The notes under the pieces: generated by a model
Told to the model about the DNA's origin: nothing
The model's database searches: none
What the model saw: the letters and a program-made list of their open reading frames with translations, nothing else
Position numbers and translations under genes: made by a program
From: Candidatus Thiodiazotropha endolucinida
Lineage (GTDB): Bacteria; Pseudomonadota; Gammaproteobacteria; Chromatiales; Chromatiaceae
Reading direction: 5' to 3'
DNA length: 64,000 nucleotides
Assembly (NCBI RefSeq): GCF_001715975.1
Contig: NZ_MARB01000019.1
Coordinates: 16,402 to 80,401, forward strand
In this document: piece after piece, positions 54,777 to 64,000 of the stretch
How positions within the stretch are numbered: position 1 is the first letter of the stretch
Layout: the number at the start of each line of letters is the position of its first letter

Positions 54777-54854
54777 AGTAAAGGATTTATCGGAAAACTG
54801 TCGGGAAAGGAAAAAGCGCTAGCCACTAAATAAGCGTTAACTCTTAGATCTATA

Positions 54855-55037
54855 TGGTGCGCCCGGAGGGATTATTCGGATCGATGGTCCTCACCCCAGC
54901 GGGGCCGCCGCTGCGCGGTGTTCTGCACGCCTGCGGCGCTGGTCGAACCGGCTCTTTGAAGTCGGAGGTTCGAATACTCTCGATTCTTCTTTTGGCGCGA
55001 TTTGCAATACAGGTGATACTTGAGAAAATGGCGCGCC
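54855..55037. repeat. tRNA-derived dispersed repeat, copy B
   Basis: Modules: GGTGCGCCCGGAGGGATTAT (complement of a tRNA 3'-end-like sequence), GCCGCCGCTGCGCGG, GAAGTCGGAGGTTCGAATAC (T-arm-like), then AGGTGATACTTGAGAAAATG. The same modules are in copy A at 51254. No functional tRNA can be folded. The surrounding gap 54777-55262 otherwise holds only a 14-base palindrome TTGTTGTACAACAA at 55153-55166. Confidence 0.65.
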
Positions 55038-55622: not shown

Positions 55623-56746
55623 AATCGATCACCTAGTCAATAAATGCTAAGTTCACAGTTTCACCCATACACTTGATCAATAGCATTACTGATTATTCTT
55701 TATCTCAGTAACTAATTTACCTATTTAACAGGTTGTGCAGTGCACGCATTCTTTGTGAGCGTGTGCAAATCTCTGCACTGGTAGCTGACACTATAAGCAG
55801 ATGTGATAGATTGTGTGCTTTCTATCATTTTATAGGTAACAAGGATTTTGATTCTGCTTACTAAGATAGAACACAGCCCACATCTAACTAGATGTCCAGT
55901 CAGTAGTTGTACTCCATTCATAGCGGTTGAACGGGACGTGCCAAAGATTATGTAGTGACTGCACTGCGATGGTTCATCGGCTTTTGAGGTTTATGTGAAA
56001 GCGTTAAGCGCGCTGCTCATGAACCTCTGCCGACGTTGGCGAAACGCCGGGGCTGGAACACACCAATAAAATTACGATCAGTCCTCCAAGCAAAGCGTGG
56101 GATGGAAATCGTCATTTGTCTTGTTTTTGACGGATCGAATGCCCCTCAATTATTACCTCAAATCCCAGGAAGCGCAGGGGGGGCTTTCCCAGCTCGAAAG
56201 GGGCGCCGGAAAACGCGAGCAACTCGTTTGCAGCAGAGGAAAGGCTTTTCTCCACCAGAAAAACTTCTCCTCAGTCACGCAGACTCTACTGCGCACTGGA
56301 TTAGTGTTAACAGGCCCTAGTACATCATCTGTAACCAACTCACACCCTGTCGGCTTTTTCTTACAAATGCCTTTGCCGTTAGAACCTCGTCCTTAATACC
56401 ACCTCGATGGGTGGATAGATACACACGAAGATGTACAAGCCTGTGCCGGCTAGGAAGGCAGCTACTCCATTCATGTTGTGACCTAAGGTGGGAATTCGCG
56501 CTCTCTCCATCCTCCCAGACGGCCCATGAAATGCCGCATATGAGCTGCAGCCTCCCGAAACCGGGGAGTTAAAATGAGACTAACTGCGAGATTTTAACTA
56601 GCAGCTAAAAGCGAAGCCGAACTGCACGGACTACTGAGGAAACCTTCATCGACCTGGCGCAAAAGGGACCCCACTCACAGAAGCGCCGCAATGCCCTGGC
56701 AACTATCGAGAATATTCAGAATGAGCTTGCATACAGGATATTGTCC
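55623..56746. other. Gene-poor region with repeat remnants
   Basis: More than 1.1 kb without a convincing gene. 55623-55930 is AT-rich. 56030-56320 holds short overlapping frames next to a dispersed repeat and looks like a decayed element. 56400-56740 includes a small hairpin CTCCCGAAACCGGGGAG near 56550 and a frame reading EETFIDLAQKGPHSQKRRNA that could be the end of a lost gene. Confidence 0.4.
56297..56319 (-). repeat. Dispersed repeat, TAGGGCCTGTTAACA family
   Basis: On the minus strand TAGGGCCTGTTAACACTAAT then CCA, identical over this length to the 14824 and 26008 copies. It ends the decayed-element region 56030-56320. Confidence 0.75.
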
Positions 56747-56775
56747 TTGACATTATTCTTACCAGTGGTAATATT
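56747..56775 (+). promoter_or_regulatory. Sigma-70-type promoter of the six-gene operon
   Basis: A perfect -35 TTGACA (56747-56752), a 17-base spacer and a -10 AATATT (56770-56775). Operator 1 lies inside the spacer and operator 2 just downstream. AGGAGG at 56797-56802 provides a strong ribosome site for the first gene. Confidence 0.7.
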
Positions 56776-56791
56776 TTCTTACCACCAGTAA
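56759..56791. promoter_or_regulatory. Pair of 13-bp palindromic operators
   Basis: Operator 1 TTACCAGTGGTAA (56759-56771) and operator 2 TTACCACCAGTAA (56779-56791); the complement of operator 2, TTACTGGTGGTAA, matches operator 1 at 11 of 13 positions. Centres are 20 bases apart, two helical turns, and they straddle the promoter. The XRE protein encoded second in the operon is the obvious candidate repressor. Confidence 0.75.
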
Positions 56792-56807
56792 GGAATAGGA
56801 GGTCTAT

Positions 56808-57089
56808 ATGCCGAAATTAGATATAGAACAGATAGTTATCGCTTGCATTCAAGAAAACATGGAGCTTTCGTGTGAAGAGGTGCCCACTATTACCATGAAT
56901 ACCAATCCTGCCAATGATTTGTGTGGCTTTGACAGCCTGAGAACCTTGGAAGTACTCATTGGTATTGAAGAGCGCCTGGAATGTGAATTACCGCCGGACA
57001 AGGTATTTTCAGGCATGAAATATGAAGATATGACTATTAGCTCCCTAGTGACCTCAATCCAAAAAATAAAACAGGAAAGCATGTCATGA
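56808..57089 (+). CDS. Acyl-carrier-protein-like protein
   Basis: 93 residues, acidic and helical. DLCGFDSLRTLEVLIGIEER matches the carrier-protein signature (G-x-D-S-L followed by a helix), with Ser43 as the expected phosphopantetheine attachment site, and ECELPPDKVFSGMKYEDMTI the later helices. It would carry an acyl or aminoacyl group, but no ligase or transferase for loading is obvious here. First gene of the operon with AGGAGG; its stop overlaps the next start (ATGTCATGA region, 4 bases). Confidence 0.75.
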   Translation: MPKLDIEQIVIACIQENMELSCEEVPTITMNTNPANDLCGFDSLRTLEVLIGIEERLECELPPDKVFSGMKYEDMTISSLVTSIQKIKQESMS

Positions 57090-57427
57090 GCAAAGAAGAC
57101 ATCGCGAACCGTCTACGCTCTGCCCGAGAAATGGCTGGATTGTCACAAGGTCAAGCCGCAAAAAAACTTGGGATGCATCGCCCAACTATCAGTGAGATTG
57201 AGGCCGGTAGGCGAAACGTCAAATCTAATGAGGTGGTTGAATTTGCTAACCTTTATGGCATTGAAGTCAGCTGGATAACCGAGGGGATTGTAAGTGAAGA
57301 CAAAATAGACCAATCCATCTTAGCAGCTGCAAGAGAATTAAGTGCCATGAAGGATGAGGATATAGAGACACTGATTAACACGATTAAGATGATCAAAAGC
57401 TCGGGAAACAAGGATGGAAAAGATTAG
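57086..57427 (+). CDS. XRE-family transcriptional regulator
   Basis: 113 residues. The N-terminal Cro/CI helix-turn-helix is clear (LRSAREMAGLSQGQAAKKLG and HRPTISEIEAGRRNVKSNE). The C-terminal half is a helical tail (ILAAARELSAMKDEDIETLI). It overlaps the ACP-like gene by four bases and the metallopeptidase gene by 14. XRE plus ImmA/IrrE pairs usually form a repressor cleaved on stress; the two operators upstream fit autoregulation. Confidence 0.92.
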   Translation: MSKEDIANRLRSAREMAGLSQGQAAKKLGMHRPTISEIEAGRRNVKSNEVVEFANLYGIEVSWITEGIVSEDKIDQSILAAARELSAMKDEDIETLINTIKMIKSSGNKDGKD

Positions 57428-58247
57428 AGCCGCTCAGGTAACTGCCAAAGCCTTAAAAACGCGAAAGACCTTTCTTGGTGTCTCTCCTCATTTAGCCATT
57501 TGCCCCTATGCTCTATGCGAAGCAATGGGTTTTGATCTTCGTTTCGTGAACATACCCTCTTTTGAGGGTATGTATGTTGCCAGCCAGAATCTAGTACTTA
57601 TATCTGCTGAGCGCCCTGAGGGGAGGAAGCATTTTACCTGTGCGCATGAAATCGGCCATCATGTGCTTGGACATGGCACAATTATTGATGAAATTCTTGA
57701 GTGTGGATCAAGCAATGAAGAGGAGCTTGAAGCTGATTTTTTTGCCAGTATGCTTCTCATGCCATCTTCTGCAATTACACGGAGCATGATTCGTTACGGA
57801 ATCGAAGCGAATAATTTAACTCCTAAGGATTGCTACATATTAGCGAAATACTTTGGTGTTTCCTATCAGGCTTTTATCACACATATTTACAGTAATCTAC
57901 GGCTCTTCAATTACAGGCACTATCAAACCCTAAAAAAAGGCAATCTGCCTGGGATTCGTTTTGAAATCTGCGGACTAGATACCAAGCAGCAGATTTTCTC
58001 TATCGGAGATTGGTGGGAAGAAAAGGCACTGGAGCTGGAGGTCGGTAATTATATTGTGACTGATCAACCGCTACTGGTAGATGGGCCAGACTTACTGGAG
58101 ATCGAAGATGTACAGAAAAATATATTGAAAGCTAAATCCCCTGGTATAACGCGGGTGTACAACGGCACATGGAGTCGTTTTGTAAAAATCAGTCGTCATA
58201 AATTTCAGGGATTTTACCAATATAAATATGATGAGGAAGAAGAATGA
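57414..58247 (+). CDS. ImmA/IrrE-family metallopeptidase
   Basis: 277 residues. The zinc motif is CAHEIGHHVLGHG (HExxH, residues 78-82) with the downstream ELEADFFASMLLMP supplying the third ligand, as in ImmA/IrrE (COG2856). A C-terminal domain of about 110 residues (FEICGLDTKQQIFSIGDWWE, ISRHKFQGFYQYKY) is not recognised. By analogy it would cleave the XRE repressor when activated, switching on the operon. Overlaps both neighbours. Confidence 0.9.
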   Translation: MEKIRAAQVTAKALKTRKTFLGVSPHLAICPYALCEAMGFDLRFVNIPSFEGMYVASQNLVLISAERPEGRKHFTCAHEIGHHVLGHGTIIDEILECGSSNEEELEADFFASMLLMPSSAITRSMIRYGIEANNLTPKDCYILAKYFGVSYQAFITHIYSNLRLFNYRHYQTLKKGNLPGIRFEICGLDTKQQIFSIGDWWEEKALELEVGNYIVTDQPLLVDGPDLLEIEDVQKNILKAKSPGITRVYNGTWSRFVKISRHKFQGFYQYKYDEEEE

Positions 58248-58990
58248 TCATCCAGGGAGAAAATGTAACTGAATGCTGGTTGAAGACCTTAATTGCTATG
58301 GCTGATGGCCCTCATTGGGAGCTTTCACCGTTTATTGCGCATTTTAAAACTGGGAGTAAAACTCCTGTCTATGCCGATGAATTGGAAAGTGATTTGAATG
58401 TTTATCTGGAAAGTGTTGGTCAGCCACACATAAATACTACAGCTGGTACGATTTTCCCTCAAAGCCTAACAGGTGGAAGCGAAGATGTGTTTGATCGTTT
58501 TGATCGCATATGGAAATATATAAAAAAGGACAAGCGTAATTACAAAGGCCACTATTTTAGACGACTTGTCGCTTATAATGAACAAAATGGCCGACGTGTT
58601 AACCAGCTCAAGCACATAATCGAAACATATAACGGCATAGAAGGTGTCCGTCATCCGGTTCATCGGCGGTCGGCACTAATTGCATTGACCTTCGACCCTA
58701 CCGTAGATCACACTGCACAGCCATTGCGCGGTTTCCCTTGCCTCCAGCAAATCTGTCTTGTCCCTAAGAATGATGGCGAGGTGACGCTTAATGCCATATA
58801 CGCTATGCAACATCTTGCGGACAGAGCGTATGGTAATTATGTTGGACTGGAGAATCTAGGCCACTTCATGGCGGGCGAGATGGGCCTAGAGCTCGTTGAG
58901 GTAAACTGTATCGCAAGCGTATTGGAGCTTGGAAAGATGAAAAAGTCAGTAGCAAAAGAATTCGCGGAAAAATACAAACAATATGTCTAA
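58244..58990 (+). CDS. Thymidylate-synthase-like protein
   Basis: 248 residues. The second half follows the thymidylate synthase/dCMP hydroxymethylase pattern: a candidate nucleophile Cys166 in RGFPCLQQICLVP, then LNAIYAMQHLADRAYGNYVG and LENLGHFMAGEMGLELVEV, aligning with the family's RSxDxxxGxPxN and GLxxG regions. Several usual residues differ, so activity may be altered. In phages such enzymes make 5-hydroxymethylpyrimidine nucleotides. The assignment is by eye and needs profile confirmation. It overlaps the metallopeptidase stop by four bases and the next start by eight. Confidence 0.65.
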   Translation: MIIQGENVTECWLKTLIAMADGPHWELSPFIAHFKTGSKTPVYADELESDLNVYLESVGQPHINTTAGTIFPQSLTGGSEDVFDRFDRIWKYIKKDKRNYKGHYFRRLVAYNEQNGRRVNQLKHIIETYNGIEGVRHPVHRRSALIALTFDPTVDHTAQPLRGFPCLQQICLVPKNDGEVTLNAIYAMQHLADRAYGNYVGLENLGHFMAGEMGLELVEVNCIASVLELGKMKKSVAKEFAEKYKQYV

Positions 58991-59981
58991 ATCGTCCAGC
59001 ATTATAATAAAACTCGAACCTTCCAAACCCACAAAAGCATACGATACTTACTGGAAATTTGCCTACGAACGCCAAAATGTCTGGTACAACCGCCTATATG
59101 GAGCGCAGCGCCCATTCAGTGACGATCCCATATTGCAGGAATATAAATTCACAAATGTATACAGAGCCAGCGATCGTGTAAGCCAGTATCTAATTAAGCA
59201 TGTGATATACAACACCGTATATGGCGACAACCCGAATGATACTGTTTTTAGGATATTACTATTCAAGCTCTTCAATAAAATTGAAACATGGAAGCTACTG
59301 GAACACCGATTTGGAGAGTTGAGTGTAAAGACCTTCAAAATCAACGCATTCATCAAGTTTCTTGATAGTGAGATGAATAAGGGAAGAACCCTCTATTCAA
59401 ACGCATATATGATGGCCTCAGGCTGTAGGGAGTTTAATGTTACTCGCAAACACCACGCACACTTGATGCTGCTAGAAAAAATGCTTAAAGAAAAATTACC
59501 TGACAAGATTGCTAACTGCATAAAAATGCGTGATGCCTATGCCTTGTTATTGGACTACCCGCTAATCGGTCGATTTCTCGCTTACCAGTACGTAACTGAC
59601 CTCAATTATAGTGAGCTGACTAACTTCAAAGAAACTGAATTCACGGTACCTGGCCCAGGGGCGAGAGACGGCATTAAAAAATGCTTCAGATCGTTGGGGG
59701 GCTTATCAGAAACGGACATCATCAAAATGATGACCGACAGACAAGAATTCGAGTTCGAACGTTTGGGGCTGAGATTCAAGAGGCTTGGTAACAGAAAGCT
59801 ACAGTATATCGATATGCAAAATATTTTTTGCGAAGTTGATAAATATTGCCGCGTAGCACATCCAGATCTTTCGGGCTTTTCGGGACGGACACGGATAAAA
59901 CAGCGGTTTAAGTATAACCCTGATCCCATAGAGTATTTTTTCCCACCCAAATGGAAAATCAAGCTAGGAGCAAAGAAATGA
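58983..59981 (+). CDS. HMUDK-helical-domain-like protein (thymine hypermodification family)
   Basis: 332 residues, basic and helical. YWKFAYERQNVWYNRLYGAQ, DDPILQEYKFTNVYRASDRV and SQYLIKHVIYN match, as far as I can judge by eye, the signature of the helical domain attached to phage 5-hydroxymethyl-dU DNA kinases and of the related predicted alpha-glutamyl/putrescinyl-thymine pyrophosphorylases. No P-loop kinase domain is present, so it is a stand-alone version. GPGARDGIKKCFRSLGG looks like a helix-hairpin-helix-type turn, consistent with a DNA-glycosylase-like fold. The substrate (DNA or free nucleotide) is unknown. Overlaps both neighbours. Confidence 0.7.
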   Translation: MSKSSSIIIKLEPSKPTKAYDTYWKFAYERQNVWYNRLYGAQRPFSDDPILQEYKFTNVYRASDRVSQYLIKHVIYNTVYGDNPNDTVFRILLFKLFNKIETWKLLEHRFGELSVKTFKINAFIKFLDSEMNKGRTLYSNAYMMASGCREFNVTRKHHAHLMLLEKMLKEKLPDKIANCIKMRDAYALLLDYPLIGRFLAYQYVTDLNYSELTNFKETEFTVPGPGARDGIKKCFRSLGGLSETDIIKMMTDRQEFEFERLGLRFKRLGNRKLQYIDMQNIFCEVDKYCRVAHPDLSGFSGRTRIKQRFKYNPDPIEYFFPPKWKIKLGAKK

Positions 59982-60868
59982 ACGTTGATGAATATCAGGC
60001 TCTCGCCGCAGATACCATGCAGTTTCATAAAACACAGGAAGCGGCATTATCTATCGTCATGCTTGGTCTTAGTGGTGAGGTTGGAAGCTTATCGACGGAA
60101 TACAAAAAGAAAATGCGTGATGGTGATAGCTATACACTTTTTCGTGAAAAGCTCGTAGAAGAGCTAGGCGACATTATCTGGTATTTAACTTCTATTGCCA
60201 CAATTGAAGACATAACGCTTTCTGAAATCCTTAAATTCAATCTTAAAAAAACGCAAGATCGATGGGCTGATTTGCAAGGCACGGCACAACTCCCCCTGGA
60301 AGGCGATTTTTATGATGACGAGTATGACGAGAAAGAACAGCTACCCAGAGAATTTGTCACTGAATTTAACGAAGGCACTGACAAAAATGGGAAACACTGC
60401 ATTGAAATTTCTGTTAATGGAGAGGTATTCGGCAATACGATCAGAGACAATAATTATGAAGACGACTATTACTGGTATCATGATTTATTTCATTTTTCTT
60501 ATGTCACCTGTTTGGGGTGGTCACCCACGGCGCGAGGCCTGATGCATAAAAAACGCCGTAGTAACGAGCAGGTCAATGAAATTGAAGACGGCGGTCGAGC
60601 AATCGTTATAGATGAGGCCATATCAGCACTAGTTTTTGAGCATGCCCGCAATCACAAATTCTACGAAGGCGTTACAACCCTTGACGAACAACTTCTGCAG
60701 ACGATACGCCTGCTTACTAGACATCTTGAAGTGCAACAAGCAACTCCTAAAGAGTGGGAAAAGGCAATATTAACTGGTTTTGACGTATGGCGGATAATGC
60801 GCAAGGAGAAAATTGGACGTGTTATCTGCAATATGCATGAGAAAACCATGTATTTTGAAAATCCGTAA
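59978..60868 (+). CDS. MazG-type nucleotide pyrophosphohydrolase
   Basis: 296 residues. The N-terminal all-alpha NTP-pyrophosphatase domain shows LGLSGEVGSLSTEYKKKMRD and the EELGDIIWYL (ExxxD) metal-binding helix. A second domain (YYWYHDLFHFSYVTCLGWSP, EDGGRAIVIDEAISALVFEH) is a conserved extension known in some MazG-like proteins. It would hydrolyse (modified) nucleoside triphosphates to monophosphates. The start at 59978 has GGAG upstream and overlaps the preceding stop (ATGA). Last gene of the operon; no terminator is visible after it. Confidence 0.85.
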   Translation: MNVDEYQALAADTMQFHKTQEAALSIVMLGLSGEVGSLSTEYKKKMRDGDSYTLFREKLVEELGDIIWYLTSIATIEDITLSEILKFNLKKTQDRWADLQGTAQLPLEGDFYDDEYDEKEQLPREFVTEFNEGTDKNGKHCIEISVNGEVFGNTIRDNNYEDDYYWYHDLFHFSYVTCLGWSPTARGLMHKKRRSNEQVNEIEDGGRAIVIDEAISALVFEHARNHKFYEGVTTLDEQLLQTIRLLTRHLEVQQATPKEWEKAILTGFDVWRIMRKEKIGRVICNMHEKTMYFENP

Positions 60869-61378: not shown

Positions 61379-64000
61379 ATGCCAAAGGACCAATCCACCA
61401 TCTCATTACTTTCACCAAAAGAAATTTGGGATCGCGTCGACCCACTTGCTGATGATCTACATACCAACCCACAAGTCAAGGGGCTGGCGGATCTTCCATA
61501 CAACCTGTTAGGCGGTTCTCGATTCGAACGCCTCTGTTATGAACTATTGGTAGCCGAGGGCCATAATCCCCGCTTTTTTGGGCGTAGCGGGCAAAGCGAT
61601 TATGGTGTCGACATTGTTGTCGAGGCCGGCGAAATCCGTACTGTCTACCAATGCAAAAATCTTTCTGTGGCGCCGTCATGGACCACCATCCGTGATGCCG
61701 TTACCAAATTCAAGACGGATTGGCTCAGCAAAGCTGGTCTGCCAACACCCAAGCGTTACATCTACTGTTGCCCCCATCCATTGGATGCTAGGTCGCTTGG
61801 GGAGAAGTGGACCCATTTTCGAGATGAATTCAAGGCAAGAACTGGCGTTGAGATCGGTTTCTGGGATCAGAATGCACTGAATACCCGTCTGCGCCGCCTA
61901 CCCGATGTGGTCGCCGGACTTTTTTCCCCTTCCTATGCCGAACATTTCTGTGATCATGATGGGTGGATGGACGATCCCTGGCTTCGCGTATCCCGAAGCG
62001 AAGCGCGTCACCGTCCAGTGGAACGCTTCCTGAAGCGTCATTACCAAGAGGCCATTTATGTCGAGGAGAAGGATTCCGAAGCTTTCAACGACGCCATCTC
62101 CTCCTCCCCTGTCTTCGCCATACGGGGTCAACCCGGGGCCGGCAAGACGTTGATCGCGCTGGAGCTGGCCTGTGGGATGGAGTCACCGAGACGACGCATC
62201 TATTATGCCAGCCTGGAAGACTCCACCGATGTTCAGCGCCTATGGCAATCGGCACGCCGTCGCACCAACCTGCCGGCCATCTTTATCCTCGACGATTGCC
62301 ATCGGGATCTGGTGAAGACAGGGCGTCTGCTGGAAAGCCTTGCTCCGGAGTTAGGAGACAGCCGCAACCGACTGCGACTATTACTGATATTGCGGGATCT
62401 GCCTTCGAGTGGCGGCAACGAACTGGACGATACCCCGGATTGGCTGTTCCAGTTGCAACAGGAGGCACGAGTCATGGACTTGGTGTGCAGTCTGGATCGC
62501 ACGCTGGCCGTGGCTATTCACCTGCGACCAGAACTGAAAGGGCTTTCCCGCAAGCGAAGGGAACGGCTACATCATTTGACCGGTGGTGACCTGCTATTGC
62601 TGGACGAACTCCTTCAGGACGTAACCGAACCGAACGACTTGGAACGCCTGAACCCAGATCAGCTGCAAAACAGCATCCTCAATCGCTATTTTGGAGGCGC
62701 CAGGCGGCTGCCAACCGTACTACGCTTGGCATGCCTGTCCCAATTCGACTTAGTTCCCCTTGCCGACTGCCTGGATCGAGATTGGCAACCGGGCGAGAAG
62801 GCCTTGGCAGCACCACTGATGAGCATGTTGTTCGGACCGCCGCGCTACAAATTTCTGCATGCCTCCCTGGCTGAACTGGTTACGCGGGCCTTGGTGACCG
62901 TCGAGATTCCACCGGAACGATTGACCCAGGGGGTGATCGACCACACTTCGAATGCGTTGCTCGGCTACCTTGGACACCTACAGGCAGTTCACGATACGGG
63001 CGCAACCTTATCCTTTGTAGAGATCATGTTGACGACGCGGCTCAAGCTATTGGCAAACGAGGTGGAAGCACAACTCAAGGCCAGGGTTTTGGCTGACGAG
63101 GCCATCACAATCGAAATTGGTGCCAATTTGGAGCAATACCATTTCTTCCACCTGCATCTCATGCTGATGCTGCTCAACTTGGCCAAACATCCTAGCAAAT
63201 CACGATATGAGGAGCTGATTGTAGAGCGTTTCCATATTCTCTTCCGGCACGAGGCAAACGGAACCGATGGCGCAGGAGTGGCGACTATCGCGACCGGGAT
63301 TCGTACCTTGGCCAAGTACGCACCCGACCGACTCGAAAACCTGTTTTCTGTCTATGGACCTCAAGCCTTCCTACAGCTAATCCAGGCCAATGGCACCCTG
63401 TTCGAGCTGTTCCGTGTCCTGGAATACGCGACCCCCAAGTTTCGTGGGCAACTGCTGGATCTATTGACTCCGGCCATGGCCCTTGCCCTGGTGGAGAAAA
63501 CCATTGCCGCGGGGCGTTCCATCGGCACCCTGCATATGGCTATGCGGGAGTTGGCTGATGCCGACCCGGCCCTGCTGGTACGGCTGGAGCAGGCCATCGG
63601 CGCTGAAGCATTCCTACATCTAATCCAGGCCAATGGCACCCTGTTCGAACTGTTCCGTGTCCTGGAATACGCAACCCCCAAGTTTCGTGAACAACTGCTG
63701 GATCTATTGACTCCGGCCATGGCCCTTGCCCTGGTGGAGAAAACCATTGACGTGGGGCGCTCCATCGGCACCCTGCATATGGCTATGCAGGAGTTGGGCG
63801 ATGCCGACCAGGCCCTGCTGGTACGGCTGGAGCAGGCCATCGGCGCTGAAGCATTCCTGCATCTGATCCAGGCCAATGGCACCCTGTTCGAGCTGTTCCG
63901 TGTCCTGGAATACGCGACCCCCAAGTTTCGTGGGCAACTGCTGGATCTATTGACTCCGGCCATGGCCCTTGCCCTGGTGGAGAAAACCATTGCCGCGGGG
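61379..64000 (+). CDS. Large PD-(D/E)xK nuclease-STAND-type NTPase with 81-residue repeats (cut by window edge)
   Basis: At least 874 residues, open at the right edge. N-terminal nuclease-like domain: RFERLCYELLVAEGHNPRFF, then Asp78 (DYGVDIVV) and Gln91-x-Lys93 (VYQCKN), the Mrr-type DxV..QxK pattern. P-loop ATPase: GQPGAGKT (250-257) and Walker B IFILDDCH (301-308). From about residue 662 the protein consists of an 81-residue repeat (EAFLHLIQANGTLFELFRVL to ALLVRLEQAIGA), two full copies and a third cut off, nearly identical at DNA level with period 243. The layout nuclease-NTPase-repeat sensor resembles Avs/STAND antiphage proteins. ATG chosen as first in frame. Confidence 0.85.
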   Translation, partial: MPKDQSTISLLSPKEIWDRVDPLADDLHTNPQVKGLADLPYNLLGGSRFERLCYELLVAEGHNPRFFGRSGQSDYGVDIVVEAGEIRTVYQCKNLSVAPSWTTIRDAVTKFKTDWLSKAGLPTPKRYIYCCPHPLDARSLGEKWTHFRDEFKARTGVEIGFWDQNALNTRLRRLPDVVAGLFSPSYAEHFCDHDGWMDDPWLRVSRSEARHRPVERFLKRHYQEAIYVEEKDSEAFNDAISSSPVFAIRGQPGAGKTLIALELACGMESPRRRIYYASLEDSTDVQRLWQSARRRTNLPAIFILDDCHRDLVKTGRLLESLAPELGDSRNRLRLLLILRDLPSSGGNELDDTPDWLFQLQQEARVMDLVCSLDRTLAVAIHLRPELKGLSRKRRERLHHLTGGDLLLLDELLQDVTEPNDLERLNPDQLQNSILNRYFGGARRLPTVLRLACLSQFDLVPLADCLDRDWQPGEKALAAPLMSMLFGPPRYKFLHASLAELVTRALVTVEIPPERLTQGVIDHTSNALLGYLGHLQAVHDTGATLSFVEIMLTTRLKLLANEVEAQLKARVLADEAITIEIGANLEQYHFFHLHLMLMLLNLAKHPSKSRYEELIVERFHILFRHEANGTDGAGVATIATGIRTLAKYAPDRLENLFSVYGPQAFLQLIQANGTLFELFRVLEYATPKFRGQLLDLLTPAMALALVEKTIAAGRSIGTLHMAMRELADADPALLVRLEQAIGAEAFLHLIQANGTLFELFRVLEYATPKFREQLLDLLTPAMALALVEKTIDVGRSIGTLHMAMQELGDADQALLVRLEQAIGAEAFLHLIQANGTLFELFRVLEYATPKFRGQLLDLLTPAMALALVEKTIAAG
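63362..64000 (+). repeat. In-gene 243-bp tandem repeats
   Basis: Equivalent positions occur at 63368, 63611 and 63854, exactly 243 bases apart, with only scattered single-base differences. The array continues past the edge. Encodes the 81-residue helical repeats of the large NTPase. Confidence 0.95.

Follow-up and report, generated by a model that had tools for sequence, protein, structure and literature searches.

A widespread six-gene operon joining an acyl carrier protein and a predicted CapH/CapP-type switch to putative nucleotide-modification enzymes

The window, i.e. the whole stretch of 64,000 nucleotides analysed here, contains one promoter followed by six genes in the order acyl carrier protein (ACP), XRE repressor, M78 ImmA/IrrE-type peptidase, divergent thymidylate-synthase (TS) homologue, PF18723 protein and MazG-MazG_C protein (Table 1). 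The six ORFs were recovered where a sequence-only reading of the same DNA had placed them, and its description of a single operon with overlapping junctions held: the successive overlaps are 4, 14, 4 and 8 bases, and the last is 4 bases if the MazG gene starts at the ATG at 59978. This ORF was listed from 59951, but in an alignment of 31 homologues at least 90% have a methionine where 59978 falls; judged from this alignment, 59978 is the more likely start. All six families assigned earlier by eye were recovered by profile matches, a weak one in the case of the TS homologue.

Table 1. Features of the operon and its upstream flank (positions in the window).
Feature	Position	Strand	Basis
~180 bp repeat, left edge of the operon-bearing strain-specific island	54854..55037		comparison with two same-genus genomes
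Operon	56747..60868	+	one promoter and six overlapping genes
Promoter (TTGACA ...), two operator-like inverted repeats and ribosome-binding site	56747..56807	+	sequence; repeats in relatives
Acyl carrier protein of 93 aa with a DSL motif that contains Ser43	56808..57089	+	PF00550; profile match to solved ACPs
XRE-family repressor, 113 aa, CapH-like	57086..57427	+	PF13560, PF01381; PADLOC capH
M78 ImmA/IrrE-type zinc peptidase, 277 aa, CapP-like	57414..58247	+	PF06114; PADLOC capP; profiles
Divergent thymidylate-synthase-family protein, 248 aa	58244..58990	+	TIGR03283, hhalign, residue counts
PF18723 protein, 332 aa, predicted transferase, helix-hairpin-helix glycosylase-like fold	58983..59981	+	
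MazG pyrophosphohydrolase domain and MazG_C domain	59978..60868	+	PF03819, PF18722; conserved Met; fold

Downstream of the TTGACA element are the inverted repeats TTACC-agt-GGTAA and CTTAC-cacca-GTAAG. The strictest palindrome in the window (6-base arms, spacer of at most 3) was reached by 295 of 2000 letter shuffles and is not significant, and the case for operators therefore rests on conservation. When seven loci were compared, two such repeats with an equal start-to-start spacing of 20 bases were found before the same operon at loci L013 and L015, one perfect and one partial copy were located upstream of it at L016 and L017, and the upstream regions of L016-L019 had the core GTAAGATnnTCTTAC in common. 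Of the single promoter with two operators described earlier, the promoter and the repeats stood, the latter as putative operators by their conservation in relatives and not by window statistics.

The XRE protein matched HTH_31 (1.7e-14), HTH_3 (4.2e-14) and PADLOC capH (2.5e-10), and the product of the gene immediately downstream matched Peptidase_M78 (1.4e-14), PADLOC capP (2.7e-19) and, in profile comparisons, IrrE (6e-10) and CapP (1.5e-7). The HEXXH motif of the peptidase spans residues 78-82, and H78, E79 and H82 are each present in 76 of 77 cases. An XRE gene directly before the gene of an M78 peptidase with HEXXH is the arrangement of a CapH/CapP-type switch, and the matches to the CapH/CapP and IrrE models agree with the repressor-switch type proposed for this pair. 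In CapH/CapP the peptidase is activated by single-stranded DNA (ssDNA) and the repressor is cleaved. The locus resembles both the CBASS-associated CapH/CapP and PprI(IrrE)/DdrO in that the XRE gene lies beside that of an HEXXH M78 peptidase near the head of the presumed target operon, but here the pair is combined with an ACP and nucleotide-modification enzymes instead of CBASS, and the switch is a predicted one. An arginine seven residues before the HEXXH is kept in 74 of 77 cases and would by its spacing correspond to R85 of Deinococcus PprI, which has been described as part of an ssDNA patch (PMC10904395). The C-terminal part of the peptidase is uncharacterised.

The ACP matched PF00550 with 21.3 bits (cut-off 20.8) and solved ACPs with a best E-value of 4.4e-6. 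Ser43, the phosphopantetheine serine, lies in a DSL motif and is invariant in all 75 loci with an ACP. Every ACP-profile match was located upstream of the M78 gene (75/75) and zero were found elsewhere among 6435 ORFs. The divergent TS and M78 genes were present in 75/75 ACP loci, and none of the 10 loci lacking the divergent TS had an ACP. A nearby acpS gene was found in 29/75 ACP loci compared with 1/16 other loci.

The TS homologue had no Pfam match. Its match to NCBIfam TIGR03283 (7.9e-11) scored 41.8 bits, well short of the curated cut-off of 174.55. The protein was aligned with canonical TS by hhalign at an E-value of 8.6e-4 and a probability of 23.5. The catalytic Cys166 (80/81 homologues) and Asn198 are kept, and we assign the protein to the TS family from the weak similarity of its catalytic core to two profiles and from the catalytic cysteine. 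In ThyA, RSxD and DSxHxY are the motifs that bind the phosphate and sugar of dUMP. The RSxD motif is absent at the aligned site, where 2/81 TS homologues have Arg, in contrast to the second-TS ORFs, of which 16/17 have RSND; HxY after the GN motif was found in 0/81 TS homologues, with the profile alignment stopping just short of that segment.

The PF18723 protein matched its family at 2.1e-105, and with the weak TIGR03283 match this upheld the relationship of the two enzymes to the TS and HMUDK families. It contains PF18723 only, without the PF18748 kinase domain, and is by its domains not an HMUDK; the protein of SBSphiC, the one phage relative scanned, has both domains, and a thymidylate-kinase domain (PF02223) is fused to PF18723 in 22/91 loci. 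The solved structure nearest to the predicted model was the 5-PmdU glycinyltransferase (8z2n, 8z2m), by its PDB title the 5-phosphomethyl-dU glycinyltransferase PaMx11 gp46 (PUGT); the two proteins are far apart, with 8% identity and a Foldseek E of 0.039. Helix-hairpin-helix glycosylases and a queuine salvage enzyme have folds similar to the predicted one as well, the transferase being the top fold match by less than 1 Z, and a profile of PF18723 gave only weak annexin matches among PDB sequences (E 0.13 or worse). Since the model resembles both the glycinyltransferase and the glycosylases, the protein may itself be the group-transferring enzyme, and it is probably a transferase and not a kinase. 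A kinase remnant was considered and dropped after the structure comparison; the absence of the kinase domain noted by the sequence-only reading was confirmed, whereas the idea of a kinase leftover gave way to a predicted fold of the transferase/glycosylase type.

The last protein matched MazG_C at 1.8e-68 and MazG at 7.8e-5. The predicted helical fold of residues 3-115 is that of MazG, including the acidic residues that bind metal, and the fold matches include dCTPase and DR2231; the MazG_C domain gave no fold match of its own among the listed matches, which mainly cover residues 3-115. MazG-type enzymes have an ExxE motif and hydrolyse non-canonical dNTPs.

The operon is present in unrelated bacteria across many phyla. 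The PF18723 protein has 395 relatives in GTDB; of the 80 best, 67 have the first five genes in the same order and 46 have all six, i.e. the set does recur elsewhere. Across 91 loci with PF18723, which include these 80, the five genes were in fixed order in 73 and all six were present in 51, and in a less selected sample the operon was found in 3/5 PF18723 genomes. A near-identity search with the operon against E. coli genomes gave no match. Within about 5 kb, a dCTP deaminase was found in 26/91 loci, a canonical second TS in 18/91 and a dUTPase-like gene (family by eye) in 4/91, and these neighbours are possible substrate-supply genes. Among 421 flanking ORFs of at least 200 aa, 143 were drawn, 130 taken and 125 scanned, leaving out five accessory neighbours of radical SAM, Nmad2 or TIR type; the defence enrichment of these 125 ORFs was weak and without control, as judged from the first 25 of 210 and of 149 matching families, and it is given no place among the main arguments. 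Two same-genus genomes carry neighbouring copies of the ~180 bp repeat that lies at the left edge of the island, and similarity to both genomes stops at 55037. The upstream flank is common to a 4.7-Mb single-contig same-genus genome, which supports a chromosomal setting.

We estimate a probability of about 0.5 that the operon is an inducible nucleotide-modification system of the CapH/CapP type, induced by ssDNA, most likely directed against phages and making a C5-decorated deoxyuridine nucleotide with the carrier; that the six-gene set is a stress-triggered defence is probable. At rest, the XRE repressor would occupy the two putative operators at the promoter. By analogy with CapH/CapP and PprI/DdrO, ssDNA from infection or damage would activate the M78 peptidase, the repressor would be cut and the operon released. 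The TS homologue and the phosphopantetheinylated ACP would then produce a C5-substituted deoxyuridine nucleotide, to the C5 arm of which the PF18723 transferase would add an amine- or acyl-type group at the mononucleotide level, and MazG-MazG_C would hydrolyse unwanted or modified dNTPs. The product might poison phage DNA synthesis or serve as an alarm molecule. This reading is favoured by the fixed gene order, the confinement of the ACP to loci with the divergent TS and M78, the nearby acpS and possible substrate-supply genes, the thymidylate-kinase fusions, the glycinyltransferase as nearest solved structure, the kept arginine of the peptidase and the TS and 5-hmdU-kinase domains known from E. 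coli defence. The induced chromosomal modified-pyrimidine system inferred earlier is retained in its chromosomal setting and revised in the role of PF18723. A more detailed version, in which the thioester-bound group of the ACP passes to C5 of a deoxyuridine nucleotide through a TS homologue that holds dUMP non-canonically and a glycosylase-fold transferase, giving a new immune nucleotide under ssDNA control, is put forward tentatively and with the odds against it.

An unlikely alternative is that the operon decorates thymines of host or plasmid DNA in the manner of phages, with nucleases telling self from non-self. PF18723 matches proteins of SP10 and PhiW-14, phages with hypermodified bases in their DNA (PMC5977210), and four of the operons are located on plasmids, as this would lead one to expect; against it, the repressor-protease switch suggests expression on induction instead of all the time, the recurrent neighbour clusters include neither a methylase nor a nuclease family, and relatives with a kinase have one of the mononucleotide type. 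The ACP could instead be part of the switch, its acylation state reporting lipid or carbon status to the M78 peptidase in a metabolic stress response, and each of the 73 five-gene loci indeed opens with ACP, XRE and M78. The partial distance correlation of ACP with M78 (0.29, or 0.36 when five outlying loci are removed) is also near that with TS (0.35 and 0.37, respectively), and the two couplings are not separated, ACP-TS being higher in 67% of half-samples. Given that the ACP-XRE value is about zero (-0.08) compared with 0.52 for the expected partners XRE and M78, and that 0/75 ACP loci lack the TS homologue, we regard this role as slightly less likely still.

The least likely of these alternatives is counter-modification of phages that decorate their DNA, whose hypermodified bases and nucleotides would be removed or sanitised by the glycosylase-like protein together with MazG. 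The fold similarity to helix-hairpin-helix glycosylases as well as to the queuine salvage enzyme is compatible with this, as are the dCTPase and DR2231 matches and the known hydrolysis of non-canonical dNTPs by the MazG family, but a transferase leads the fold matches, albeit by less than 1 Z, and the TS homologue, ACP, AcpS, dCTP deaminase and kinase, which look like supply or biosynthetic functions, would be left unexplained.

If the more detailed version is correct, the operon would represent a carrier-protein-dependent branch of bacterial immunity. The operon would join carrier-protein biosynthesis to immune nucleotides and offers roles for PF18723 and MazG_C. It is a fixed multi-phylum operon linking nucleotide-modification enzymes to an ACP and a DNA-damage-type switch, small enough to be cloned and with an identifiable product. 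New here are the invariant ACP serine, the nearby acpS, the TS without RSxD/HxY and the transferase-like PF18723 model; no description of the ACP/switch operon was recognised in the literature searched, and parts may have been predicted earlier. Phage thymidine hypermodification of the SP10, PhiW-14 and PaMx11 type is similar in combining a TS-family enzyme with PF18723 or with a transferase whose fold is like it, but the TS here is divergent and lacks RSxD/HxY, the PF18748 DNA kinase is absent from the window, and the genes are found with an ACP and a switch in a bacterial island. A role of nucleotide-modification enzymes in phage defence is a very recent finding, given without chemistry in the passages considered: in E. 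coli, the validation of TS and 5-hmdU-kinase domains in defence dates from 2026, the DefensePredictor systems containing them reducing phage plating or plaque size (PMC13092281). These systems (thymidylate synthase, dNMP kinase, 5-hmdU kinase, NMAD) have the same domain types, whereas a term search of the main text gave no acyl carrier (PMC13092281), and they resemble loci such as L070, in which TIR, Nmad2, DCD, Tmk, PF18723 and TS are found.

The six genes, overlapping junctions and promoter that the sequence-only reading had described were borne out by inspection of the window sequence. Pfam assigned the first gene to the acyl carrier proteins (ACP, PF00550, with a score barely above the cut-off), genes two and three to XRE and M78 peptidase, the fifth protein to PF18723 (E 2.1e-105) and the sixth to MazG and MazG_C (the latter E 1.8e-68). 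The fourth protein had no Pfam match and was recognized by the NCBIfam thymidylate synthase (TS) model TIGR03283 at E 7.9e-11, with a score far below the curated cut-off. The families called by eye thus hold by Pfam for ACP, XRE, M78, PF18723 and MazG, and for TS through this sub-cut-off match. The PADLOC models capH and capP matched the XRE (E 2.5e-10) and M78 (E 2.7e-19) proteins, respectively, and no PADLOC model matched the remaining four. The component families are already known, and searches of the open literature turned up no paper that presents the six-gene operon as a system. The surprising feature is the coupling of a carrier protein to a TS homologue without dUMP-binding motifs.

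GTDB contigs were scanned with six aligned PF18723 proteins, giving 395 relatives, and the best 80 were combined with plasmid loci, phage loci and the window into a set of 91 loci, leaving out an own-genome duplicate (L001) and a locus without PF18723 (L012). ACP was present in 75 of the 91 loci, XRE in 74, M78 in 77, the divergent TS in 81 and a same-strand MazG nearby in 59. The genes from ACP to PF18723 kept this order, all on a single strand, in 73/91 loci, and did so together with MazG in 51/91. Among the best 80 of the 395 GTDB relatives the corresponding numbers were 67 and 46, the latter answering the earlier proposal to look for all six genes together elsewhere; given this selection, the operon counts describe near relatives. 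The five-gene carriers, many of them metagenome bins, belong by record name to Proteobacteria, Cyanobacteria, Acidobacteria, Planctomycetes, Chloroflexi, Verrucomicrobia, Bacteroidetes, Armatimonadota and Elusimicrobia. The existence of the six-gene operon is thus confirmed, and it occurs widely. Two plasmid loci (L009, L011) and a phage locus (L005) with more distant PF18723 proteins were without switch and ACP, and among 68 viral contigs ACP was found in one, compared with canonical TS in 31. That one contig (L093) has a bacterial-type operon with ACP, M78, TS, kinase-PF18723 and radical SAM, and may represent a prophage, or else bacterial DNA misassigned to the viral collection.

In a less selected sample of 398 genomes of the phylum, PF18723 occurred in five including the window genome, and in three of these M78, divergent TS, PF18723 and MazG were found together: the window genome, G378 (ACP present) and G178, whose contig stops short of the ACP position. 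TIR, Nmad2 and a canonical TS (G372) or a dCTP deaminase (G192) took the place of the operon in the others. A radical SAM gene was near PF18723 in 9/91 loci, eight of them without MazG, and lay downstream of it in L083, L049, L064, L077, L057 and L075; this neighbour may mark a different product. The ACP of L092 (record Bacillus sp. 2B10) closely resembles the one in L038, an Erythrobacter locus, reflecting either transfer or contamination.

Ser43 was the sole residue invariant across all 75 ACP sequences, with an FDS context in 58. The ACP profile gave 103 matches among PDB sequences, nearly all of the 60 listed being carrier proteins (best 4.4e-6), and among 6435 ORFs it had no match outside the operon ACP position; a profile built from six seed sequences alone, the seeds themselves being among the loci, found 73. 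A holo-ACP synthase gene lay within about 5 kb in 29/75 ACP loci versus 1/16 loci without ACP, the single exception (L059) being cut by a contig end. The occurrence of ACP follows that of the divergent TS, which was present in 75/75 ACP loci; the ten loci without this TS had no ACP. Six loci had the divergent TS without ACP, of which L014, L020, L040 and L059 were cut by contig ends; the others were L073 and L091.

In a profile alignment with the canonical second TS found at some loci (E 8.6e-4, hhalign probability just 23.5), the catalytic Cys lined up with Cys166 of the divergent TS, and the Asn that follows RSND, equivalent to the uracil-reading Asn177 of ThyA, lined up with Asn198. Cys166 was kept in 80/81 and Asn198 in 81/81 divergent proteins, making base chemistry plausible. 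RSND was present in 16/17 second-TS ORFs; the divergent proteins had A-T/M-Q-Q or similar at this site (Arg in 2/81), and none of the 81 had HxY after Asn198, the profile alignment ending just before that segment. From these replacements, the usual hold on the deoxyribose phosphate seems to have been lost. The best PDB profile match was a CMP 5-hydroxymethylase, with an E-value of only 0.047.

Partial correlations of pairwise distances (n = 73 loci) were 0.52 for XRE-M78, 0.40 for M78-TS, 0.35 for ACP-TS, 0.29 for ACP-M78, 0.24 for ACP-PF18723, 0.01 for TS-PF18723 and -0.08 for ACP-XRE. Across 500 half-samples the ACP-TS value was always above that of ACP-XRE; it was above ACP-PF18723 in 86% of them and above ACP-M78 in just 67%. 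By these values the ACP appears to be linked to TS and M78, not to the repressor. A single pathway containing both TS and PF18723 is not favoured by their near-zero value, and the phylum-sample result weighs in the opposite direction.

The window M78 protein matched the IrrE (6e-10) and CapP (1.5e-7) profiles. Each HEXXH residue was kept in 76/77 M78 proteins, and an Arg seven residues ahead of it in 74/77; by equal spacing this Arg corresponds to Arg85 of Deinococcus PprI, described as belonging to a patch at which a triple mutant no longer bound ssDNA (PMC10904395). CapH and CapP are described as giving DNA-damage-responsive control of adjoining immune operons (PMC13373217).

A second locus class (L070) carries a ThsB-type TIR, Nmad2, dCTP deaminase, thymidylate kinase, PF18723 and TS; L032 and L176 are similar and shorter, and L071 and L002 have fewer of these parts, with a patatin gene in L002 whose arrangement is possibly a nucleotide signal plus effector. 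Such loci resemble domain lists of DefensePredictor, which include TS and 5-hydroxymethyluracil kinase domains in validated E. coli systems; aGPT-PPlase and MazG-C systems appear in the same source as predictions untested there (PMC13092281). The most fitting reading of the window operon is that of an ACP- and switch-bearing cousin of this class, and flanking genes only mildly support the link to defence. In a variant in genome G408 (L174), which is without PF18723, the leading ORF is by eye an ACP with a DSL motif, below the profile threshold; an insertion-sequence-like gene lies downstream, and the opposite strand carries a MazG/MazG_C-like gene. A papain-like peptidase follows M78 in L010 and L063 as well.

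Coordinates of the features in the window and in two compared loci
Feature	Sequence	Position	Remarks
Repeat, ~180 bp	window	54854-55037	coincides exactly with the putative island's left edge; adjacent copies in two same-genus genomes
Short element	window	56291-56326	upstream of operon; matches of ~31-42 bases, 85-97% identity
Direct repeat	window	63360-64000	contig end; 486 bp spacing, 97% identity across 155 bp
Patatin locus	L002	114-4660	patatin-like phospholipase and PF18723 genes overlap by 11 bases, followed by MazG, TIR, Nmad2
Variant module	L174	2118-8850	after XRE gene: M78, papain-like peptidase, TS homologue in a row

The window (contig C19, 16402-80401, of a 4.49 Mb genome) ends at the contig end. 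PF18723 was not found in the other 21 same-genus genomes, and in the relatives search it was present in 1/93 genomes, namely the window genome; at 76% identity, records of Nitrosovibrio and Nitrosomonas contained the closest PF18723 proteins among the relatives found. The upstream flank is common to two same-genus genomes (95-97% identity), in both of which similarity stops at 55037, at the end of the ~180 bp repeat. Given this break, the absence from the other 21 same-genus genomes of any match to the 3 kb that follow the operon, and a G+C content of 42% in the operon versus 53% over the window's initial 55 kb, the region looks like a laterally acquired island with its right edge outside the view. 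At the direct repeat by the contig end, a minus-strand ORF shows repeated peptide blocks, and the short element upstream of the operon recurs in at least 13 of the 22 same-genus genomes.
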